NCBI GenBank assembly: GCA_021789855.1
Contig: JAJYIW010000006.1
Span: forward strand, 1-38,158
Direction: 5' to 3'
Origin: Chloroflexota bacterium
Lineage (GTDB): Bacteria; Chloroflexota; Anaerolineae; Anaerolineales; Anaerolineaceae
Length of the DNA: 38,158 nucleotides
Shown: piece by piece, positions 21,984 through 37,062 of the stretch
How the letters are laid out: every line of letters starts with the position of its first letter
Numbering within the stretch: position 1 is the stretch's first letter
Translations under genes and position numbers: made by a program
The notes under the pieces: generated by a model
The model's database searches: none
What the model saw: only the letters and a program-made list of their open reading frames with translations
What the model was told of the DNA's origin: nothing

Positions 21984-22730
21984 CTATGGGACGCGCCCCC
22001 AGGCGTAAAAGGTAGGCACGAATAACACCCTTTCTCCCTGATCCCAGGCATGCTGGTCAAGGGCGATATAAGCCGACCAACCGGATTCCGTCAAGGCCTG
22101 GCCCAGGTCATTCGCAAGGGTATCCTGCTCGGCGGAAATAAGAGCCGGGTCTACCGGGTAGGCCCATTGGCCGCCTAAAATTCCTGCCTCGACGTGAGTC
22201 AGGCCGGCCTGTGAAAAAGTGGCTGCCAGCTTCCTGCCGGCCTGTGGGTCGGCTCCCTGGCGCCGCAGGGCTTCGGTCTCAACCCGGGCGGTTTGTTCTA
22301 AATGGCCGGGATAATCTATCCGGCCTTCGTAATCCGGTTCGGCCAATGCCAGCACGCTACCGCCTGGCCGGGTAATCCGTCGCATCTCCTGCACCGCCTG
22401 GAGTGGAGCCGGGAGCCACAGCAAGAAATAATGACAGAATACCAGGTCGAACTGGCCATCTGCGAAAGGCAGGCGGCTGGCGTCGCCGTTCAGGAATGCG
22501 GTATGCGGGTCGTTAGCCCTGGCCTGTTGGAGCCTGGCGTAATCGATATCGATCCCGAAGGAGGCGGCAGGCGTGTAACTGGCCAACTCAGCAGTCAATA
22601 CGCCCGTCCCGCAGCCTATCTCGATGACCCGGCGGGCGGCGGGTAGGCCTGCCCGTGGATAGAGGTAGCGGCGCAGCGGTTCGGTCCAATGGGCCTGTTG
22701 TACAAAGCGGGCGTGCCAGTTAAACCCCAC
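21984..22730 (-). CDS. Class I SAM-dependent methyltransferase
   Basis: VIEIGCGTGVLTAEL (motif I), FGIDIDYARLQQA, FDLVFCHYFLLWL, MRRITRPGGSVLAL. Confidence 0.92.
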   Translation of the reverse strand: MGFNWHARFVQQAHWTEPLRRYLYPRAGLPAARRVIEIGCGTGVLTAELASYTPAASFGIDIDYARLQQARANDPHTAFLNGDASRLPFADGQFDLVFCHYFLLWLPAPLQAVQEMRRITRPGGSVLALAEPDYEGRIDYPGHLEQTARVETEALRRQGADPQAGRKLAATFSQAGLTHVEAGILGGQWAYPVDPALISAEQDTLANDLGQALTESGWSAYIALDQHAWDQGERVLFVPTFYAWGRVP

Positions 22731-22742
22731 GCCGTCAATCGC

Positions 22743-23906
22743 TCACGCCTGGGGCCGGTTTTTCCAGATTGATTCCCACGAATCAACCAGGAGATTCCCC
22801 ATTACGGTCGTGACGCCCTGTTCTGGCAAAACATCGCCGTCGGGTTCAACATATAGCCAGGCTTTCCCCATTCCCTGGGGTAGGGAGGTATGCTCGGCCA
22901 CCTCGAGCGCCACCGGATGGAGTGACGAATAAGGCACGGGCAGGTCCCATTCCAGGGGAAGGCCCAGATGAGCGGCTGTTACCCCGGCATTTTTCACCGC
23001 TTCCGATAAATCTTCCGAGCTGGCGCTGAGCGATAGCGACTTCACGCCCATGTCTGCGAGCCGCTGCAACAGGGAAGAAATGGTTGCCTGGTTATCCGGC
23101 GTAAGGGTTATATGCACGGTGGTGAAGATATCCGCTGTCAGCACATCCCTTACCGCTTCCCATGACTGTTCGGCTTCGGGGTGAAGCACGATCAGCAGGT
23201 GGTCGAGGCCGTTTTGCAACAGGCTGCCCAGGTATTCGTGTTCGGACAGGCGCAGACCGTCGCTGAGCAGGCCGCTGACCAATCCCACCTTTTCAGCATA
23301 AGCGATCAGGTCGGGCAGGTCGGGGCGCATGGTCGGCTCACCGCCGGTAAAAACGATGTGGGGGATGCCTGCCTGCCAGGCTTTATCCATGATCACCTGC
23401 CACTCGGCGGTGGTCAATTCGCGCCGCACACGCCCTGCCGGCACATCTTCGGGATTCGAAGCGGCCGAGACGCGGTAGGTCAAAGCGCAATCCAACCGGT
23501 AAGGCGCGGATAGCTCGGTTGTATAAGGGTCGCGCCGCTCAAAATTGAGGAAGGTTTCTGGATCCAGGTTGGGCGCGTGGATCAATGCGTCGATCTGGTC
23601 GCGCAGCATATAAAAATCCTTAAGCGCCTCATCTTTTTTAACGTGGTAACGCCGCGACATTTGCTTTCCGATTTCGGCATCCGGCGTTTGTTTGACCAGG
23701 TAATAAGCTAATTCTGCCGCGGTCTGGTTCAGATGGAGGACGGTTTTGGCGTTGACAATTAATAAGCCCAGGCCGTCCGGCTCCAGGCGTAAATGCAGGC
23801 GATATTGTTGAGGCGTCTCTGGAGGCGTCTGGTAATGGTAAATACCCGCCGGCAGGGGGAGCTTTTTAGGGAAGATTTTTTGGTAAGTATCGCGCAATCG
23901 GTTCAT
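22743..23906 (-). CDS. Degenerate radical SAM paralogue lacking all cluster cysteines
   Basis: Alignable over most of its length with the neighbouring 23943-25337 product (LHLRL..DG.GLLI.NA..V.HLN.TA; APYR.D.A.TYR; W.AGIPHIVFTGGEPT.R.DLP.LIA.AE). The CxxxCxxC site reads TYRVSAASNPEDV and no SPASM cysteines remain. Confidence 0.85.
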   Translation of the reverse strand: MNRLRDTYQKIFPKKLPLPAGIYHYQTPPETPQQYRLHLRLEPDGLGLLIVNAKTVLHLNQTAAELAYYLVKQTPDAEIGKQMSRRYHVKKDEALKDFYMLRDQIDALIHAPNLDPETFLNFERRDPYTTELSAPYRLDCALTYRVSAASNPEDVPAGRVRRELTTAEWQVIMDKAWQAGIPHIVFTGGEPTMRPDLPDLIAYAEKVGLVSGLLSDGLRLSEHEYLGSLLQNGLDHLLIVLHPEAEQSWEAVRDVLTADIFTTVHITLTPDNQATISSLLQRLADMGVKSLSLSASSEDLSEAVKNAGVTAAHLGLPLEWDLPVPYSSLHPVALEVAEHTSLPQGMGKAWLYVEPDGDVLPEQGVTTVMGNLLVDSWESIWKNRPQA

Positions 23907-23942: not shown

Positions 23943-25337
23943 TTAAAGCCAGTGGAGCGGTTCGGGCTTGACCGGTTCATGGTTGGCTGCCTGGCGAGCC
24001 AGCGGGCAGCCGCCGCCGCATTCGGGCAAAAGCTGGCAACCGGCGCATTCAGCGGGGGCCAGCTTCCTTTCACGCAGGCTGACGGCCAGCTCGTGGTTCC
24101 AGATTGCATCCCAGGGATCGTTTAACAGGTTGCCCAGGGGCTGGTAATACGATTGGCAGGGGATGACCGCTCCATCGGGCTCAATGCACATATTGTACAA
24201 GGCCGCCGTGCATCCCTTGACCCCCAATTCCATCTGAATCGGGTCGAAGTGGCAGTATTGGGTGGGGGTGTACCAGATCAGGCGTTGGTGGGCCTGGTCG
24301 GTTTTCTGGCGCGCCAGGGTCAGCATCGGCGGTAGTTCGCTCTCTTTGACCCCGTTACCGACGTTTAACCCGCGCCCGGAATAAATGAGTGCGTTCAAGC
24401 CAACAGTGGGGACGCCCAGCTCTGCCAGGTAATCCAGGGTGGCGGCGAGGTAGGGACTGTTATCCCGGAGAAGGGTGGTGTTGGTCATCACGTACAGGGG
24501 GCTGGCTAACGCATGACGCAGCCCGGCAACGGTTTGTTGCCAGGCGCCATGCGCTCGCACCATCTGGTCATGGATGGCCGGGTCATGTGACTCGAGGGTG
24601 ATTTGGGCGTGATCTAACCCGGCCTGCACCAGGCGTTTCAGGTAGTCAGGGTCGCTCAACCGGCGCCCGTTGGTATTGATCCCGGTGATCTGGCCGTTGG
24701 CTTCAGCATGGGCAATCAACTCAGGCAGGTCGTCGCGCAGGGTCGGCTCGCCGCCGGTGAAGACAATATGGGGGATACCGAGCTGCCACAGGCGGTCCAG
24801 GATGTTGAACCAGTCTTCCGTTTTCAATTCGGGATAATGGCGCGGCCTGGCGTTGTAACAATGAGCGCAGTTGTTGTTACAGCGGTAGGTGACGGCCAGA
24901 TCCATCCGGTAAGGGGCGGATGGCCTGGCGGTGAACGGCGCGATGGTCTCCAGCTCCAGATCGCAGACGGGGCAAGCGCCGTCCGGGCGGATCAGCTCGT
25001 TTACCTGGGTCGAGATGAGGGCGTAATCGTCCCTGGCCTGGGCCAGCGGTACCTGGTACCGCCGGGTGATACTGCGCACAATCTGGTTCTCCGGCAGCCC
25101 TTCGAGGGTGAAGTAGGCCATTAAAGCAGCGGTGGGGTTGAGGTGATACACCCGGTTGGCGTTGATGATCAATAATCCCTGGCCGTCTATGTCCAGGCGC
25201 AGGTGCAGGCGCACCTTGCCGCTGTCGCCATCCCGGCGATAATGGTACAGCCCAGGGCCAGGCCATTCAGGGCCAGGCTGAAAGAGCCTTTCGCCGATGG
25301 ATTGGACCGATGATTTCAGGTTTTCGGAGAAGGACAT
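23943..25337 (-). CDS. Radical SAM/SPASM protein with PqqD-like N-terminal domain
   Basis: VTYRCNNNCAHCYN (CxxxCxxC), FTGGEPTLR; SPASM cysteines GCTAALYNMCIEPDGAVIPCQSY...CAGCQLLPECGGGCPLA; N-terminal HLNPTAALMAYFTLEG...ITRRYQVPLAQARDDY resembles PqqD/RRE. Confidence 0.93.
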   Translation of the reverse strand: MSFSENLKSSVQSIGERLFQPGPEWPGPGLYHYRRDGDSGKVRLHLRLDIDGQGLLIINANRVYHLNPTAALMAYFTLEGLPENQIVRSITRRYQVPLAQARDDYALISTQVNELIRPDGACPVCDLELETIAPFTARPSAPYRMDLAVTYRCNNNCAHCYNARPRHYPELKTEDWFNILDRLWQLGIPHIVFTGGEPTLRDDLPELIAHAEANGQITGINTNGRRLSDPDYLKRLVQAGLDHAQITLESHDPAIHDQMVRAHGAWQQTVAGLRHALASPLYVMTNTTLLRDNSPYLAATLDYLAELGVPTVGLNALIYSGRGLNVGNGVKESELPPMLTLARQKTDQAHQRLIWYTPTQYCHFDPIQMELGVKGCTAALYNMCIEPDGAVIPCQSYYQPLGNLLNDPWDAIWNHELAVSLRERKLAPAECAGCQLLPECGGGCPLARQAANHEPVKPEPLHWL

Positions 25338-25356: not shown

Positions 25357-27090
25357 TTAGCGCCCTCCGCCAGCGCAGGCGCAGGCGCAGCCAGCGCATG
25401 CACAGGCGCAGGCGCAGTGCCCGCCGCCTCCACTAAAGCCGCCTGAGGTTGGTGGCGGCGCGGGATTGGTGCGGTTGGTGATGCCCCCTGTGAAGGAGGT
25501 GAGGTTGCCAATCGCGCCAGCCGCGAAGGTTGACGTGCCGTTTACCATTGACGCGGCGAAGTCGGCGCCCGGCAGGCTGGGCAAACCCCCAGAGGAACGA
25601 CCGCCCATGCCAAAAGGCTGGGTAGAGACGGACGTTACACCCCCGGCGGCGCCCGTGCTCATGCCCCGGTAGGCCGGGTCAAACCCGCCCCACCACATTG
25701 GCATAAACACCGGGATGGGCGTAAAAACGGTGCGCGTGTGTCCGTCGAAGTTGCGGTCGAGCATGGTCCACTCCAGGTTCTCATCGAACTTCTGGCTTTT
25801 GACTTCAGGCGTCCCGGCCGTTTCAACCTCGCTCCAGGCCTGCTTCATGATGCTCTGGTAGTAATCGACCGTCTCTTTCTGGCTGAACCCTTTCATTTTT
25901 GCCGATACGCTATTGACCAGGTTAACCACCAAATTTTGGAGCGCCAGCCGCTGGTCAGAGACATTGGCTTTGCTGAATGCGGCCAGGAATTCGACTTCGT
26001 ACGGGTATAACCCCTGGGGGGCAGGTGTGGTCACATCTAGCTTGAGCGGTTCTTTGGTGGCCACCGAAGCGGCGCCCTTCTTCACCACGCCAAACAAGAT
26101 CATCGTCAGCACTTTATCCAGGGGAAGCTGCATGAGGATGCCTGCTTCTACCGCAGTGAGCCCGCGCTTGATGCCGTGTCCTTCCAGAGAGATTTTGGGC
26201 GGAAGGTAATTCAGCCGGGTGCCTGAAACAGCTCTACTGCCGCCCAGGCCGCCAAAGATGCTGATCAGGAAGAAGATAAAGAACCCGATGACGAAGATAT
26301 TGCCGCAGCCGAGATTAATCCCTGAGCCTCCGCCGCTACTGCTGCTGGAGGTGGGTGCAGGCACAGCGCTGATGGCGGACGCCGGCACGTAACTGGCAGG
26401 AAATTCCGCTCCGAAATAGTAAGTTGCTGAAGAGCTGGCATTGGTAGCCGTCCAGGTATAGGTCACCCGTTTCTGGCTGTCATAGCTGCTCTGGGGAGTG
26501 CCGTTGCCTGGCCAGTTTTTGGGGGTGTAATACACCGGTTCATTTTGCTGGATCCCCGGCGGCAAATGCAGCGAGATGGTTTCATCGGTGTGCCCGACCA
26601 CGTATTGTGAACTGAAATAGTTGGGCTCAAAGTTTAAACTGGCATAGCTTTTGCCATTGCTGGTGCTTTTATAGAGCATGCCACGGATGACGCCTATGGA
26701 AACATGCACTGTGCCTGAGTTGCCTGGCTGGATGGTTTGAGCGCCTAATCCCAGGGTGATGCCACTGACGTAGGATGAGACGGTGATATCGGTGATCGCT
26801 TGGCCGTTCACGTCAGCCGTGATACTGCTCATGTCATAATCGGTGGTGGGAAGCCCGATGTCCACGTAATCGATGGGGTGGGCGCCAGACTCGTTGGTAA
26901 AGTTGTAGACGTAATCTAATGTAGCGATCCCCTGGCTATTGAAAACGAGGTCAACCGTCATTTTGGGGATGCTAAACGAATAATTTTGCGCGGCGACGGG
27001 AGCAGTGGCCAGCAAGGCGACGCCCATGACCAGCGAAGCCAGGACGGATAGCCTGGTGATAGTCTTCAGAATGATTAATTTTTTAGCCAT
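25357..27090 (-). CDS. DUF2207-like predicted membrane protein with Cys-Ala repeat C-terminal tail
   Basis: Signal-like N-terminus, beta-rich ectodomain, single strong TM (GCGNIFVIGFFIFFLISIFGGLGG), cytosolic-type domain, Gly/Ser-rich linker, C-terminus GGGGHCACACACAGCACACAGGGR. Confidence 0.85.
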   Translation of the reverse strand: MAKKLIILKTITRLSVLASLVMGVALLATAPVAAQNYSFSIPKMTVDLVFNSQGIATLDYVYNFTNESGAHPIDYVDIGLPTTDYDMSSITADVNGQAITDITVSSYVSGITLGLGAQTIQPGNSGTVHVSIGVIRGMLYKSTSNGKSYASLNFEPNYFSSQYVVGHTDETISLHLPPGIQQNEPVYYTPKNWPGNGTPQSSYDSQKRVTYTWTATNASSSATYYFGAEFPASYVPASAISAVPAPTSSSSSGGGSGINLGCGNIFVIGFFIFFLISIFGGLGGSRAVSGTRLNYLPPKISLEGHGIKRGLTAVEAGILMQLPLDKVLTMILFGVVKKGAASVATKEPLKLDVTTPAPQGLYPYEVEFLAAFSKANVSDQRLALQNLVVNLVNSVSAKMKGFSQKETVDYYQSIMKQAWSEVETAGTPEVKSQKFDENLEWTMLDRNFDGHTRTVFTPIPVFMPMWWGGFDPAYRGMSTGAAGGVTSVSTQPFGMGGRSSGGLPSLPGADFAASMVNGTSTFAAGAIGNLTSFTGGITNRTNPAPPPTSGGFSGGGGHCACACACAGCACACAGGGR

Positions 27091-27115: not shown

Positions 27116-27487
27116 TCACCACTTGGGTTCTTCGGTCAATTGATACGTGGTCTTACAATAGGGGCAGGTGACCACCGGCGCGCCTGCGACCATCTGGATG
27201 TTTTCTGGGCCCAACGTCCCACCGCAGGATTTGCATTTTAAAGTGTCCATGGCCACGTTGGCGGGCAGGTCTACTTTGTAAGTGACGTTTTGGGTGTTAC
27301 CCGGGGCGGCTGACTTGATCCGCGAAGCCAGGAAAATGGCAAGGAATGCCACCCCCCACAGGATCAGGCCAATCACAATCCAGCCTACGCCGCCTCCACT
27401 TGCGCTAAATGCACCGAGAACAAATAAAAAGCCAAAAATAATCAACAGGCCAGCCACGATAAATAAAATAATTTTCCCAGCAGTCAT
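27116..27487 (-). CDS. Two-TM membrane protein with C-terminal zinc ribbon
   Basis: Start placed at MTAGKIILF (GGAGG ribosome-binding site just upstream); two hydrophobic helices, then CKSCGG...CPYC zinc ribbon. Confidence 0.75.
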   Translation of the reverse strand: MTAGKIILFIVAGLLIIFGFLFVLGAFSASGGGVGWIVIGLILWGVAFLAIFLASRIKSAAPGNTQNVTYKVDLPANVAMDTLKCKSCGGTLGPENIQMVAGAPVVTCPYCKTTYQLTEEPKW

Positions 27488-27713
27488 GTCATCCTCCTGA
27501 ATCTCATAGATAATATAGCACCAACCTGCGGGTAAAGCAATTAAGACCGGGGCACCAATTTCCTGTAAAAGCTGCCTCTGGATGCTCAAAATGAAATAGA
27601 GCCTGGCCTCGCCAGACTTATCACCCATCTGTAGTATGGCATATTTTTATTTTCGCGAGCCTATATAATCTATGTATTTTAGATTGCTATTGTAAGGAAT
27701 TGCATGAATAGAC

Positions 27714-27745
27714 ACTTTGTGATAAAGTAAACCAGACTTTGTGAT
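27714..27745 (+). promoter_or_regulatory. Candidate Rex operator half-sites: two direct copies of ACTTTGTGAT
   Basis: Exact 10-mer ACTTTGTGAT at 27714-27723 and 27736-27745 (22 bp apart), upstream of rex; contains TTGTGA as in the Rex operator consensus. Confidence 0.5.
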
Positions 27746-27804: not shown

Positions 27805-28425
27805 ATGAACCAAACAGGCATCCCTGATATCATCGTCGGCCGGCTGCCAAAATACCTGCGCGCGCTCCAAAATATGACTTCCGGGGGGATAGTAAAAACC
27901 TCCTCCCAGGAGCTGGGCAATTACCTGGGCATTTCGGCAGCTCAGATACGAAAAGATTTATCCCAATTCGGTGAATTTGGGAAGCAGGGAACGGGATATT
28001 CCGTGCCCGTCTTGATCCAGGAATTGCAAAGGATTCTCAAAGTGGATCGGGTGTGGGATATGGCCCTGGTAGGTGCGGGCGACCTGGGGCACGCCATCGC
28101 GCGTTACCAAGGGTTCATCGATTGCGGATTTGTCATCAAATTGGTCTTTGACGCTGATCCTCAAAAGATTGGCCAGCCGCTTGGAACGTTTGTTATCCAG
28201 GACATTGCCGATCTGGTAACGGCTGTTCAGGCGTCTAATATTGAAGTGGCCATGATTACGGTACCGCCCCAGGCAGCCCAGAGTGTGGCCGACCTGTTGG
28301 TTAAAGCCGGGATCAAAGCCATATTAAATTATGCACCCGTGACCTTGAATGTACCTGGCGATGTCCATGTTCAGCACATCGATCCAGTGATTCACCTGCA
28401 ACACATGACCTATTATCTGGAGTAG
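27805..28425 (+). CDS. rex: Redox-sensing transcriptional repressor Rex
   Basis: RLPKYLRAL, SSQELGNYLGISAAQIRKDLSQFGEFGKQGTGY, GAGDLGHAIARY. Confidence 0.95.
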   Translation: MNQTGIPDIIVGRLPKYLRALQNMTSGGIVKTSSQELGNYLGISAAQIRKDLSQFGEFGKQGTGYSVPVLIQELQRILKVDRVWDMALVGAGDLGHAIARYQGFIDCGFVIKLVFDADPQKIGQPLGTFVIQDIADLVTAVQASNIEVAMITVPPQAAQSVADLLVKAGIKAILNYAPVTLNVPGDVHVQHIDPVIHLQHMTYYLE

Positions 28426-34046: not shown

Positions 34047-35882
34047 TCAAGAGGGGTCCGTTTCCGGCTGATAATTCTTCGCCTGGGCCAGGTACATGCG
34101 GGCATACTGCCCGCCTCGCTTCAATAATTCATTATGGTTACCGCTCTCCACCACGCGTCCCCTATCCATGACGTAAATCCGGTCGGCCATGTGCACGGTC
34201 GAAAAGCGGTGGCTGATCAGGATAGCGCTGCGGCCATGGATCAGGCTGCGGAAGCGGTCAAAAAGAGCCGCTTCCGCCAGCGGGTCGAGTGCGCTGGTGG
34301 GCTCGTCGAGCACGACAATCTGCGCCTGGCGTATGAAGGAGCGCGCCAGGGCTATTTTCTGCCACTCACCCGTGCTCAGATCCTTGCCATCTTCAAACAT
34401 GGTGCCCAGGTAGTTATCGTACCCCTTAGGCAACCGGCGGATCGTTTCGTCGACCCCTGCCTGCCGGGCGGCTGCTTCGATGCGCGCCCGGTCGGGCGGT
34501 GCATCTACGTCGCCAAGCCAGATGTTCTCCCACGCGGGCAGCATATAGTGCACATAATCCTGGAAGGTCACGCTGATTTCTCGTTGCCACCGCACCGGAT
34601 CCACGTCACGCAGGTCAATCCCATCCAGCGTGATCCGCCCGCCATCCGGGCGGTAAAGCTGGCACAGCAGCTTGATCAGGGTGGTTTTGCCGGATCCGTT
34701 TTCGCCTACCAGAGCGATTACCTCGCCAGGGCCTAAATGTAAATCAACCGACTCCAGCGCGGGTTGGGCCGTACCCGGGTAAGTGAAGCTCACCCCCTCG
34801 AAGGTTACCCCACGGGTGATGGGTTGCGGGATGGGGCGAGGATGCTCCGGCGCCTGGATCGCCGGCGCCAGGTCTAAAAAGTGGTAGAAATTGCTCAAGA
34901 ATAAGTTGTTCTCATACAACCCTGCCAAAGCCTGTAGGATAGATTGGAGGAACCCCAGCCCACTTTGAAAGCCCAGGTACACCATCACCAGGTCGCCCAG
35001 GCTGAGGGCGCCCCGCAACGCCTGCAAGGCAGTGTAGCCGAAGGCAGCAAACACGGCGATGGAGGCCAGCGCCTGCGCAAAAAAGTCCAATAGCGTCCGG
35101 CGACGGTACAGGTCTAAACGACTTTTACGTAAGGCCTGGCGTAAATCGTGGAAGCGCCCCTTGAATAGTGGCCCCAGTTGGAACAGCCGGATTTCCTTGG
35201 CATGGTATCCGGTGGTCAGCATCCAGTGATAATTCTCCGCCTCGCGCTCATGCTTCGTCTGCCCTAATGTAAACTTGAATAAACGGCGGGAGTACAGGAT
35301 GCGGACGATAGCTGCCGGTATTGCTGCGGCGAACAGGATGATCCCGGCCCAGGCATTCGCCCACACGAGCAAGCCGGCGATGCCCACGATGGTGATCCCG
35401 CTCTGGCCTAGCGAGACCAGACCGGTGACGATGCTCGTTGGACGAGATGGCCCTTCTATTTGGGCGCGGTGCAGTGTGTCATAATACTCCGGATTCTCAT
35501 AGTAACCCAGATCCATCACAATCGATTGGGCATGTATCTGGTCCGAGACAGCATCGGCTACCATCAACGCCTGGGCCGAGCTGGCCATCTCCCCCAGTGA
35601 GCGTGCCAGGGCGATCAGCACCGCCACGCCAACCGCTACACCCAACCAGGCTAACACCGGCTGGATAGCAGCAGATAGGTTTGATGCTTTCACCCCAATG
35701 GTCACGGTATCGATCACCCGTTTCATCACATACAGCGCTGCCAGCGGCAGCAGCCCCTGCACCACCACCAGGCCCAGGTTCACCAGCGTCCAACCGGGCG
35801 CAGCGCGCCATACCAGGCGAATCGCCCGGTCAATATGGAGCGCCTGGCGCACGGTTTCTTTCAAAGGAAGGGGCTGGCTCAT
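34047..35882 (-). CDS. ABC transporter, fused permease and ATPase
   Basis: N-terminal multi-TM region; ATPase motifs VALVGENGSGKTTLIKLL, LSTGEWQKIALARSFIR, IVVLDEPTSALDP, LISHRFSTV. Confidence 0.95.
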   Translation of the reverse strand: MSQPLPLKETVRQALHIDRAIRLVWRAAPGWTLVNLGLVVVQGLLPLAALYVMKRVIDTVTIGVKASNLSAAIQPVLAWLGVAVGVAVLIALARSLGEMASSAQALMVADAVSDQIHAQSIVMDLGYYENPEYYDTLHRAQIEGPSRPTSIVTGLVSLGQSGITIVGIAGLLVWANAWAGIILFAAAIPAAIVRILYSRRLFKFTLGQTKHEREAENYHWMLTTGYHAKEIRLFQLGPLFKGRFHDLRQALRKSRLDLYRRRTLLDFFAQALASIAVFAAFGYTALQALRGALSLGDLVMVYLGFQSGLGFLQSILQALAGLYENNLFLSNFYHFLDLAPAIQAPEHPRPIPQPITRGVTFEGVSFTYPGTAQPALESVDLHLGPGEVIALVGENGSGKTTLIKLLCQLYRPDGGRITLDGIDLRDVDPVRWQREISVTFQDYVHYMLPAWENIWLGDVDAPPDRARIEAAARQAGVDETIRRLPKGYDNYLGTMFEDGKDLSTGEWQKIALARSFIRQAQIVVLDEPTSALDPLAEAALFDRFRSLIHGRSAILISHRFSTVHMADRIYVMDRGRVVESGNHNELLKRGGQYARMYLAQAKNYQPETDPS

Positions 35883-35898
35883 GAATGGAGATTAAGCG

Positions 35899-37062
35899 TC
35901 ATCGCTGGGTGGGTGGGAACAGGATACTGGGCTGCAGATCGGGCCGGGCAGTGGCAATGGCTTCTGCCCGTGCGTGGGCTACCTGGCAGAAATAGTCGTT
36001 CCACCCGTCCATTTGGCCGGATTCCAGGTAGGCATGGGCCGGGCAATACAGGCACAGGTTGACAATGGGGCAGCGACCGCAACGCTCCTGGAAGACCGGG
36101 TTGGTGGGTTGCATGGCACGCACGCGCGGCACAAGCTCGTTCCAGGCTTCTGCCAGGCTACCCTTGCGCAGGTCAAAGATCGTATCGGGGTGCCATAAAT
36201 CACTGCACAATCGAAAAATACCGTCGTAGCTGACGGCAAAATTCTTCATGCCAGCGTTGCAATAGAACAGGTGATCCAGTGCATCAGTGGCAAATTCTGG
36301 GACGATCAGCCGGTCACATTGATGCTCCAATGACCTGGCGCGGGCGTCATCCGCTTGCTCGACTGCAACGATCTCGGCGGATGATAGGCGCTCGGTTTGA
36401 ATGTCCACATTACGTTGCGGATCCCGATCATAACGGAGGTGGAGGAGCGGGTCAAAGCGGAAATAGTCGGTGGTATGCTCGCGGCAGAAGGCGGCGATGG
36501 CGGGAAGCTCTTCTACGTTCGAACGGATGGCCATGGCCTTCAGCCGCACCTTGAGCCCAGCCTTTAGCAGTAGATCCAGACCGCGTCGGAAGGCCGCATA
36601 CGACCCCGGTTTGCGGGTCACTCGCTCGTAGGTCTCCCGGGTGACGCCATACACGGTCACTTCCAGATCGCGCGGTGGGTATTTTTTAAATAACGCCACG
36701 TGCTCTTCAGTCACCAGGCAGGCGTTGGTGAAAAGGGAGATCAGCAGGCCTTTGCGTTTGAGGGCGAGGTAAATCTCGGGAAAGTCCTGGCGTAACAAGG
36801 GTTCACCGCCGCTGATCAGCACCCACAGCGCGCCCAGCTTCACCGCCTGGTCAGCGATGTCGCTGATTTCGGCTATGGAAAGCTCTTTCTTCTTGGCTTT
36901 TCGATCACCTGCTGGAAGGTTGATGTAACAATGACGGCAATCGTTATTGCAGCGGGCCGTGATCTCCAGGTCGAAAGACAAAGGCACCCGCTGGCCAGCT
37001 AACTTGTTCCATAAGTTGAATTCAGGTAATGAGCTTGTTGTGACAAACGGTTTAGTATTCAT
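35899..37062 (-). CDS. Radical SAM/SPASM protein (peptide-modification type)
   Basis: ITARCNNDCRHCYI, LISGGEPLLR; SPASM FYCNAGMKNFAVSYDGIFRLCSDLW...CGRCPIVNLCLYCPAHAYLESG...YFCQVA. Confidence 0.93.
   Translation of the reverse strand: MNTKPFVTTSSLPEFNLWNKLAGQRVPLSFDLEITARCNNDCRHCYINLPAGDRKAKKKELSIAEISDIADQAVKLGALWVLISGGEPLLRQDFPEIYLALKRKGLLISLFTNACLVTEEHVALFKKYPPRDLEVTVYGVTRETYERVTRKPGSYAAFRRGLDLLLKAGLKVRLKAMAIRSNVEELPAIAAFCREHTTDYFRFDPLLHLRYDRDPQRNVDIQTERLSSAEIVAVEQADDARARSLEHQCDRLIVPEFATDALDHLFYCNAGMKNFAVSYDGIFRLCSDLWHPDTIFDLRKGSLAEAWNELVPRVRAMQPTNPVFQERCGRCPIVNLCLYCPAHAYLESGQMDGWNDYFCQVAHARAEAIATARPDLQPSILFPPTQR

Follow-up and report, generated by a model that had tools for sequence, protein, structure and literature searches.

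What is known of the peptide chemistry of radical SAM (rSAM) enzymes comes mostly from small peptides that are secreted and from precursors of cofactors. In the sactipeptide and ranthipeptide systems (SkfB/SkfA, CteB with SCIFF, AlbA, PapB with freyrasin) an RRE-rSAM-SPASM maturase stands beside a Cys-rich target, which is a short precursor with a removable leader, and the cluster carries a peptidase or exporter. The PQQ and mycofactocin pathways (PqqE-PqqD-PqqA, MftC) use a PqqD-type recognition domain and an rSAM-SPASM enzyme of the PqqE kind. Among membrane proteins, the DUF2207 family combines a signal peptide, a beta domain, a transmembrane helix, a cytosolic winged-helix domain and a Gly-rich end. 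The closest published parallel to the system described here is provided by the TIGR04222 membrane proteins with Cys-rich C-termini, which have been proposed as MNIO substrates (PMC12452194).

The locus analyzed here lies in a stretch of 38,158 nucleotides from a Chloroflexota bacterium (the window, meaning all of the DNA that was analyzed) and runs in the order zinc-ribbon membrane protein, tail protein, rSAM enzyme, degenerate rSAM paralogue (psSAM) and methyltransferase, with gaps of 12–36 bases among the last four genes. Its features, in window coordinates, are as follows.

27116–27487, minus strand: small membrane protein with two transmembrane segments and a CxxC...CxxC zinc ribbon; homologues of about 115–135 residues, conserved neighbor
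25357–27090, minus strand: tail-protein gene, 577 residues (open reading frame; homologue in 132 of 147 genomes of the same family)
26398–26976, minus strand: predicted extracytoplasmic beta-sandwich, DUF2207-like, residues 39–231 (AlphaFold2 pLDDT > 90)
26239–26298, minus strand: transmembrane helix, about residues 264–284 (hydropathy 2.56 at 264–283; helix 269–284 in the model)
25681–26208, minus strand: predicted cytosolic winged-helix/helical domain, residues 295–470 (AlphaFold2 model; conserved KRGLTAVEA motif)
25462–25575, minus strand: conserved helical segment LPGxDFA...FT...TNP, residues 506–543, candidate leader-like RRE recognition segment
25420–25461, minus strand: variable Pro/Ser/Gly linker, residues 544–557 (alignment; high per-position entropy; pLDDT < 50)
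25360–25419, minus strand: C-terminal tail HCACACACAGCACACAGGGR, (CA)4-G-(CA)3-GGGR, putative rSAM core region (open reading frame; homologues keep the tail)
23943–25337, minus strand: radical SAM enzyme with N-terminal PqqD-like RRE, CxxxCxxC core and SPASM CX2CX5CX3C
24990–25256, minus strand: PqqD/RRE-like winged-helix part of the rSAM enzyme, residues 28–116 (AlphaFold2 model; PF05402, 20.0 bits)
22743–23906, minus strand: psSAM, with a PqqD-like domain and without CxxxCxxC (sequence; Pfam rSAM, PqqD and partial SPASM)
21984–22730, minus strand: class I SAM-dependent methyltransferase (PF08241), conserved neighbor, archaea included

This cassette resembles the sactipeptide and ranthipeptide clusters in encoding an RRE-rSAM-SPASM maturase directly beside its Cys-containing putative target. 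However, that target ends a 577-residue membrane protein and is not a small precursor with a removable leader, no peptidase or exporter is conserved within 8 kb across 33 loci, a degenerate rSAM protein and a methyltransferase are added, and the target sequence is near-invariant in both archaea and bacteria. PQQ and mycofactocin biosynthesis share the recognition domain and the type of enzyme, but the rSAM enzyme falls far below every NCBIfam equivalog cut-off, including those for PqqE (TIGR02109, 112 vs 381.35) and MftC (TIGR03962, 88.8 vs 265), and its putative substrate resembles neither PqqA nor MftA. The layout of the DUF2207 proteins recurs in the tail protein, whereas the Pfam profile of that family, PF09972, misses the window protein, and the Cys-Ala tail with its rSAM cassette lies outside the family definition; one relative (L157) reaches 20.1 bits against the PF09972 cut-off of 24.4, and a protein of the sister system described below (L324) exceeds it at 25.5 bits. 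With the TIGR04222 proteins the system shares an integral membrane protein with a Gly/Ser-rich, Cys-containing C-terminus and a proposed role as substrate of a RiPP-type enzyme. Nevertheless, the tail protein is no member of that family by profile, enzyme or topology: NCBIfam gave no TIGR04222 match to the window protein (E ≤ 0.1) or to the relatives scanned (E ≤ 0.01), the enzyme is an RRE-rSAM-SPASM protein, and a Pfam scan found no MNIO (DUF692) gene in the eight window genes around the tail, nor was one present among the conserved neighbors. Their C-termini are diverse, predicted to be periplasmic and loosely associated with the enzyme, whereas the Cys-Ala tail is invariant, always contains Cys, is predicted to be cytosolic and co-occurs with its enzyme one to one.

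The last 20 codons of the tail-protein gene (25360–25419, followed by the stop at 25357–25359) read HCACACACAGCACACAGGGR and hold seven of the eight cysteines of the protein, the eighth lying in the membrane segment (NLGCGNIF). The protein begins with a signal peptide and the beta-sandwich, and a single transmembrane helix leads into a C-terminal region of about 293 residues in which, according to the AlphaFold2 model and hydropathy, a winged-helix and helical domain is followed by a conserved helix (508–541) and the disordered tail. An excess of Lys and Arg after the last transmembrane segment (116 of 123 tail proteins), together with the signal peptide and the transmembrane helix, therefore places the tail in the cytosol, on the same side as the rSAM enzyme, by predicted topology. 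The earlier note on this DNA had described the tail with its coordinates, the repeat and the seven cysteines, and had proposed a signal peptide, one transmembrane helix and a membrane-free C-terminal region of about 290 residues with a cytosolic tail; its description is accurate in every detail checked, and the topology analysis upholds its proposal. Ahead of the variable linker, the LPG..TNP segment keeps P507, G508, F511, A512, F533, T541, N542 and P543 invariant in the alignment, is modeled as helices 508–526 and 530–541, and is a candidate for the part of the protein that the RRE of the rSAM enzyme recognizes. No family in Pfam or NCBIfam covers the tail protein, a sequence search against the PDB returned no match, and the fold search returned mainly M1-aminopeptidase-like beta domains at query TM-scores of about 0.23, which are uninformative for function. 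The tail strings had no match in the searched paper texts, so that the tail chemistry is apparently unnamed.

The CxxxCxxC and SPASM CX2CX5CX3C motifs of the rSAM enzyme are invariant, as are further residues. Its AlphaFold2 model (mean pLDDT 89) starts with an RRE-like domain of four strands followed by three helices, which scores just under the PqqD cut-off (PF05402, 23.4 bits). The best fold matches of the model are SkfB, SuiB (with bound SuiA) and CteB, with the SPASM peptide epimerase EpeE ranked well below them, and by sequence the nearest relatives of solved structure are SkfB, PqqE and SuiB. Its neighbor psSAM, which lacks the cluster-binding cysteines, is likely to be a non-catalytic partner.

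Conservation of the tail was judged on sets found by domain similarity; the per-position entropies are necessarily zero over the last 17 residues, since this subset had been chosen on the motif, and were not counted as evidence. Within the window's own taxonomic family, whole-protein BLAST matches extend through the last residues of the query in about 128 of the 132 genomes with a homologue; three of the remaining four are truncated where the contig stops, and the fourth is a longer, distinct protein with the N-terminal domain alone in common. Homologues only 36–58% identical overall still finish with the same tail letters, while the linker just upstream varies in both length and letters, and this comparison of tail with linker, which the earlier note had called for, shows the tail to be far better conserved among orthologues with the same operon. 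About ten variants in all occur among 135 representative tail proteins (less than 80% identical), the commonest being CACACACAGCACACAGGGR and the others having one CA unit more or fewer, CACACAGCACACACAGGGR, CACACACDSCACACAGGGR or a few single-case forms. The tail is present in 20 of 20 genomes with a tail-protein profile match in a sample of 301 from the phylum. When a profile from which the tail had been removed was run on 149 genomes of one Asgard phylum, all 24 intact strong homologues proved to end in a Cys-Ala tail with GGGR. Some of these, such as CACACACACACAGGGR with (CA)6, have no central Gly, which weakens a fixed hairpin around that residue as a general model.

The association of tail and enzyme was followed with independent profiles in the same 301 genomes. 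The tail-protein profile found 20 of them and the rSAM profile found the same 20 plus one (G281), in which a divergent rSAM enzyme adjoins a DUF2207-like protein with a (CHSAC)n tail. Four genomes of genus g10 (G042, G046, G047, G048), in which the operon has no rSAM gene, were considered as a counter-example and rejected, as an orthologue of 74–77% identity is encoded elsewhere in each genome; genomes without the tail protein also lack an orthologous rSAM gene, except for two (G100, G070) whose contigs end inside the operon. One genome, G242, counts against the link: it encodes a full-length psSAM (580 bits, L261:2598-3743), with neither tail protein nor rSAM found there. Where no clear orthologous rSAM gene stood at the tail locus (24 genomes), 19 genomes gave a strong match (at least 380 bits), three the clostridial subtype and two a partial match. 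Pairwise distances of tail protein and rSAM enzyme correlate across 101 loci (r = 0.92), although this correlation is no more than supportive; both it and the co-occurrence are also expected of any co-inherited operon.

The system also has parallel versions. In a sister system, DUF2207-like membrane proteins of 570–780 residues end in a near-invariant CHSAC repeat (L387–L396 in Asgard archaea, where the repeat spans 49 residues, and L323 and L324 in Chloroflexota), and a PqqD-rSAM-SPASM subfamily of its own (305–340 bits) lies close by in 8 of these 12 loci; the pairing of CHSAC tail and own rSAM enzyme is also present in Asgard archaea. Clostridia (L162, L178, L325) carry a short version with a DUF2207-like domain, a transmembrane helix and CACACA...GGGRAGCxxKDFY near the C-terminus, with a built-in zinc ribbon in two of the three and a distinct rSAM subfamily encoded directly upstream. 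The rSAM enzymes form separate clades by tail type, with support of 0.66 for CA, 1.0 for CHSAC and 0.998 for the clostridial CACA...GGGRAGC form. The earlier note had placed the tail within reach of the rSAM enzyme and had suggested that it could carry thioethers, a metal site or another crosslink; co-occurrence and the matched subfamilies of enzyme and tail give strong support to the tail as the substrate of this enzyme, whereas they do not choose among the chemical outcomes.

Taken with the fold of the enzyme, these observations make it very probable that the rSAM enzyme acts on the tail, and we consider it probable that this is a RiPP-like system in which the tail is modified while it remains part of its precursor, a membrane protein that is not cleaved. 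In this model the precursor would be a complete integral membrane protein, inserted so that the beta domain faces outward while the winged-helix domain and the tail face the cytosol. The PqqD/RRE-rSAM-SPASM enzyme encoded next to it, with psSAM as a probable partner, would bind a cytosolic segment, for which the LPG..TNP helix is the candidate, and then move along the Cys-Ala repeat. Most plausibly it would join the sulfur of Cys to carbons of Ala in several thioether crosslinks, with the methyltransferase contributing a further group. A bond from Cys to the Ala beta carbon would give lanthionine. We favor Cys-Ala thioethers over other products, since thioether formation is the chemistry of the closest enzymes and Ala is known to serve as a sactionine acceptor, as in Cys9-Ala25 of thuricin CD Trn-beta (PMC8172795); as an assignment of the product, a thioether is nevertheless tentative. 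The finished tail would form a compact ringed or metal- or redox-binding structure at the inner membrane face, whose state could be read out by the winged-helix domain or coupled to the outer sensor domain. A metal or redox role of the tail is itself doubtful, and we can only guess at a function in sensing metal or redox state at the membrane, from the domain layout, the zinc-ribbon partner and the anaerobic hosts.

The alternative that survives best is that the tail remains a free-thiol, metallothionein-like binder of metal or Fe-S, with alternating cysteines on one face of a strand and a zinc-ribbon partner nearby, while the rSAM enzyme, psSAM and methyltransferase serve another substrate or make a small cofactor for the tail protein. 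CxC repeats suit soft metals, the zinc-ribbon membrane protein belongs to the cassette, and the otherwise invariant tail tolerates loss of its central Gly. We nevertheless regard this as unlikely: the enzyme has an RRE/SPASM architecture with peptide maturases as its closest folds, the subtypes of tail and enzyme correspond, no gene for another substrate is conserved within 8 kb across the 33 loci, and metal binding alone would seldom need letter-for-letter Ala and GGGR. It is quite unlikely that the enzyme is instead a peptide epimerase converting Ala to D-Ala, so that a strand or helix of alternating L-Cys and D-Ala aligns the thiols. Some rSAM epimerases act repeatedly along one peptide, the tail has a strict two-residue periodicity and EpeE is among the fold matches; yet its low rank there, the absence of a two-residue repeat from the sister CHSAC tails and the invariant Cys, which epimerization alone leaves unexplained, argue against this. 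Very unlikely, finally, is a tail that, like PqqA in PQQ biosynthesis or MftA in that of mycofactocin, supplies the peptide for a small redox cofactor, being modified by the rSAM enzyme and then cut off at the Gly-rich linker. While the kinship of the enzyme with the PqqE and mycofactocin maturases, the flexible linker and the invariant GGGR end would suit such a pathway, the cassette has no conserved peptidase, and the tail is part of a 577-residue membrane protein with other domains that are just as ancient.

The repeat is of two residues and its unit number varies (three to five CA on the first arm), as slippage of DNA might produce. However, the identical last 17 residues of 114 orthologues are encoded by 114 different 51-nucleotide sequences in which every Cys and Ala codon varies synonymously, and bacteria and archaea keep the same end even where the domains diverge by up to 79%, so that a functionless low-complexity repeat can be ruled out. 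The argument from codon usage that selection on the protein holds the repeat, made earlier for the window gene, is therefore correct and becomes stronger across orthologues.

For the taxonomic range, one genome per prokaryotic species was scanned with a degenerate DNA pattern, followed by inspection of open reading frames, and the resulting list is a lower bound. Six matches (L171, L184, L199, L212, L224, L228) in short or wrong-frame reading frames were left out as chance pattern matches. Bacterial carriers among the matches listed belong to Chloroflexota (mostly Anaerolineae), Aminicenantes, Acidobacteriota, Zixibacteria, Coatesbacteria, Edwardsbacteria, Armatimonadetes, Pirellulales, Fermentibacteria/Sabulitectum and others, and archaeal ones to Hodarchaeota, Heimdallarchaeota, Lokiarchaeota, Sigynarchaeota and Bathyarchaeota. 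In all listed phyla the tail forms the C-terminus of related membrane proteins, with the repeat in Clostridia followed by RAGCxxKDFY and a short tail. Most carriers are metagenome-assembled genomes, so that individual assignments may reflect misbinning; scattered contamination is made less likely by the grouping of the archaeal rSAM sequences in a single clade of 14 (support 0.94). Such a near-invariant motif of 17 residues, found from Anaerolineae to Asgard archaea on an otherwise fast-changing membrane protein with an obligate rSAM enzyme, suggests an essential, conserved chemistry of anaerobes. We tentatively propose an undescribed modification class of archaea and bacteria, in which an rSAM enzyme would convert the invariant Cys-rich cytosolic tail of a sensor-like membrane protein into a group with several rings and possibly metal or redox activity. 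Two or more versions of this class would exist in parallel, (CA)n...GGGR and (CHSAC)n, with a separate enzyme subfamily for each. The CA and CHSAC pairs offer two natural enzyme-substrate sets for comparison, and cultured carriers such as Bellilinea caldifistulae GOMI-1, Ornatilinea apprima P3M-1 and Leptolinea sp. HRD-7 open the tail chemistry to direct mass spectrometry.

The cassette itself is well delimited, its genes being the only ones to occur in more than half of the neighborhoods (33 loci, 8-kb flanks). The tail-protein gene adjoins the rSAM gene in nearly all loci with enough flank, psSAM is a neighbor in loci of the same family and order, and the core of tail protein and rSAM enzyme, often with methyltransferase and zinc ribbon, also occurs in other phyla and in Asgard archaea. 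Some phyla have the alternative order zinc ribbon, rSAM, second rSAM, tail protein, methyltransferase. The zinc-ribbon protein is shorter than its 170-residue reading frame, with a conserved start MTAGK and an AGGAGG upstream of the ATG at 27487, so that its gene most likely starts at 27487 and not at 27628. Divergent to the cassette, at 27805–28425 and likewise in L069, lies a gene for the redox repressor Rex; the region upstream of the cassette (27717–27745) holds two TTGTGA half-sites (about 27718 and 27739), with no clear palindrome of a Rex operator, and scans for promoters and terminators did not exceed chance. Outside the cassette, 35899–37062 encodes a further radical SAM protein, unrelated to the first, and adjoins an ABC transporter gene (34047–35882). 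In genus g10 a protein of 361–388 residues with several zinc ribbons, an additional metal-binding partner, precedes the cassette (L089:5670-6821, L084:3149-4234). At L331:7918-10664, and also at L132 and L141, an rSAM enzyme (about 500 bits) stands beside a paralogue of the tail protein; the L331 paralogue has 331 residues and no Cys, and the normal tail protein lies elsewhere, accompanied by psSAM alone, an arrangement that may reflect a division of labor between substrate and scaffold.
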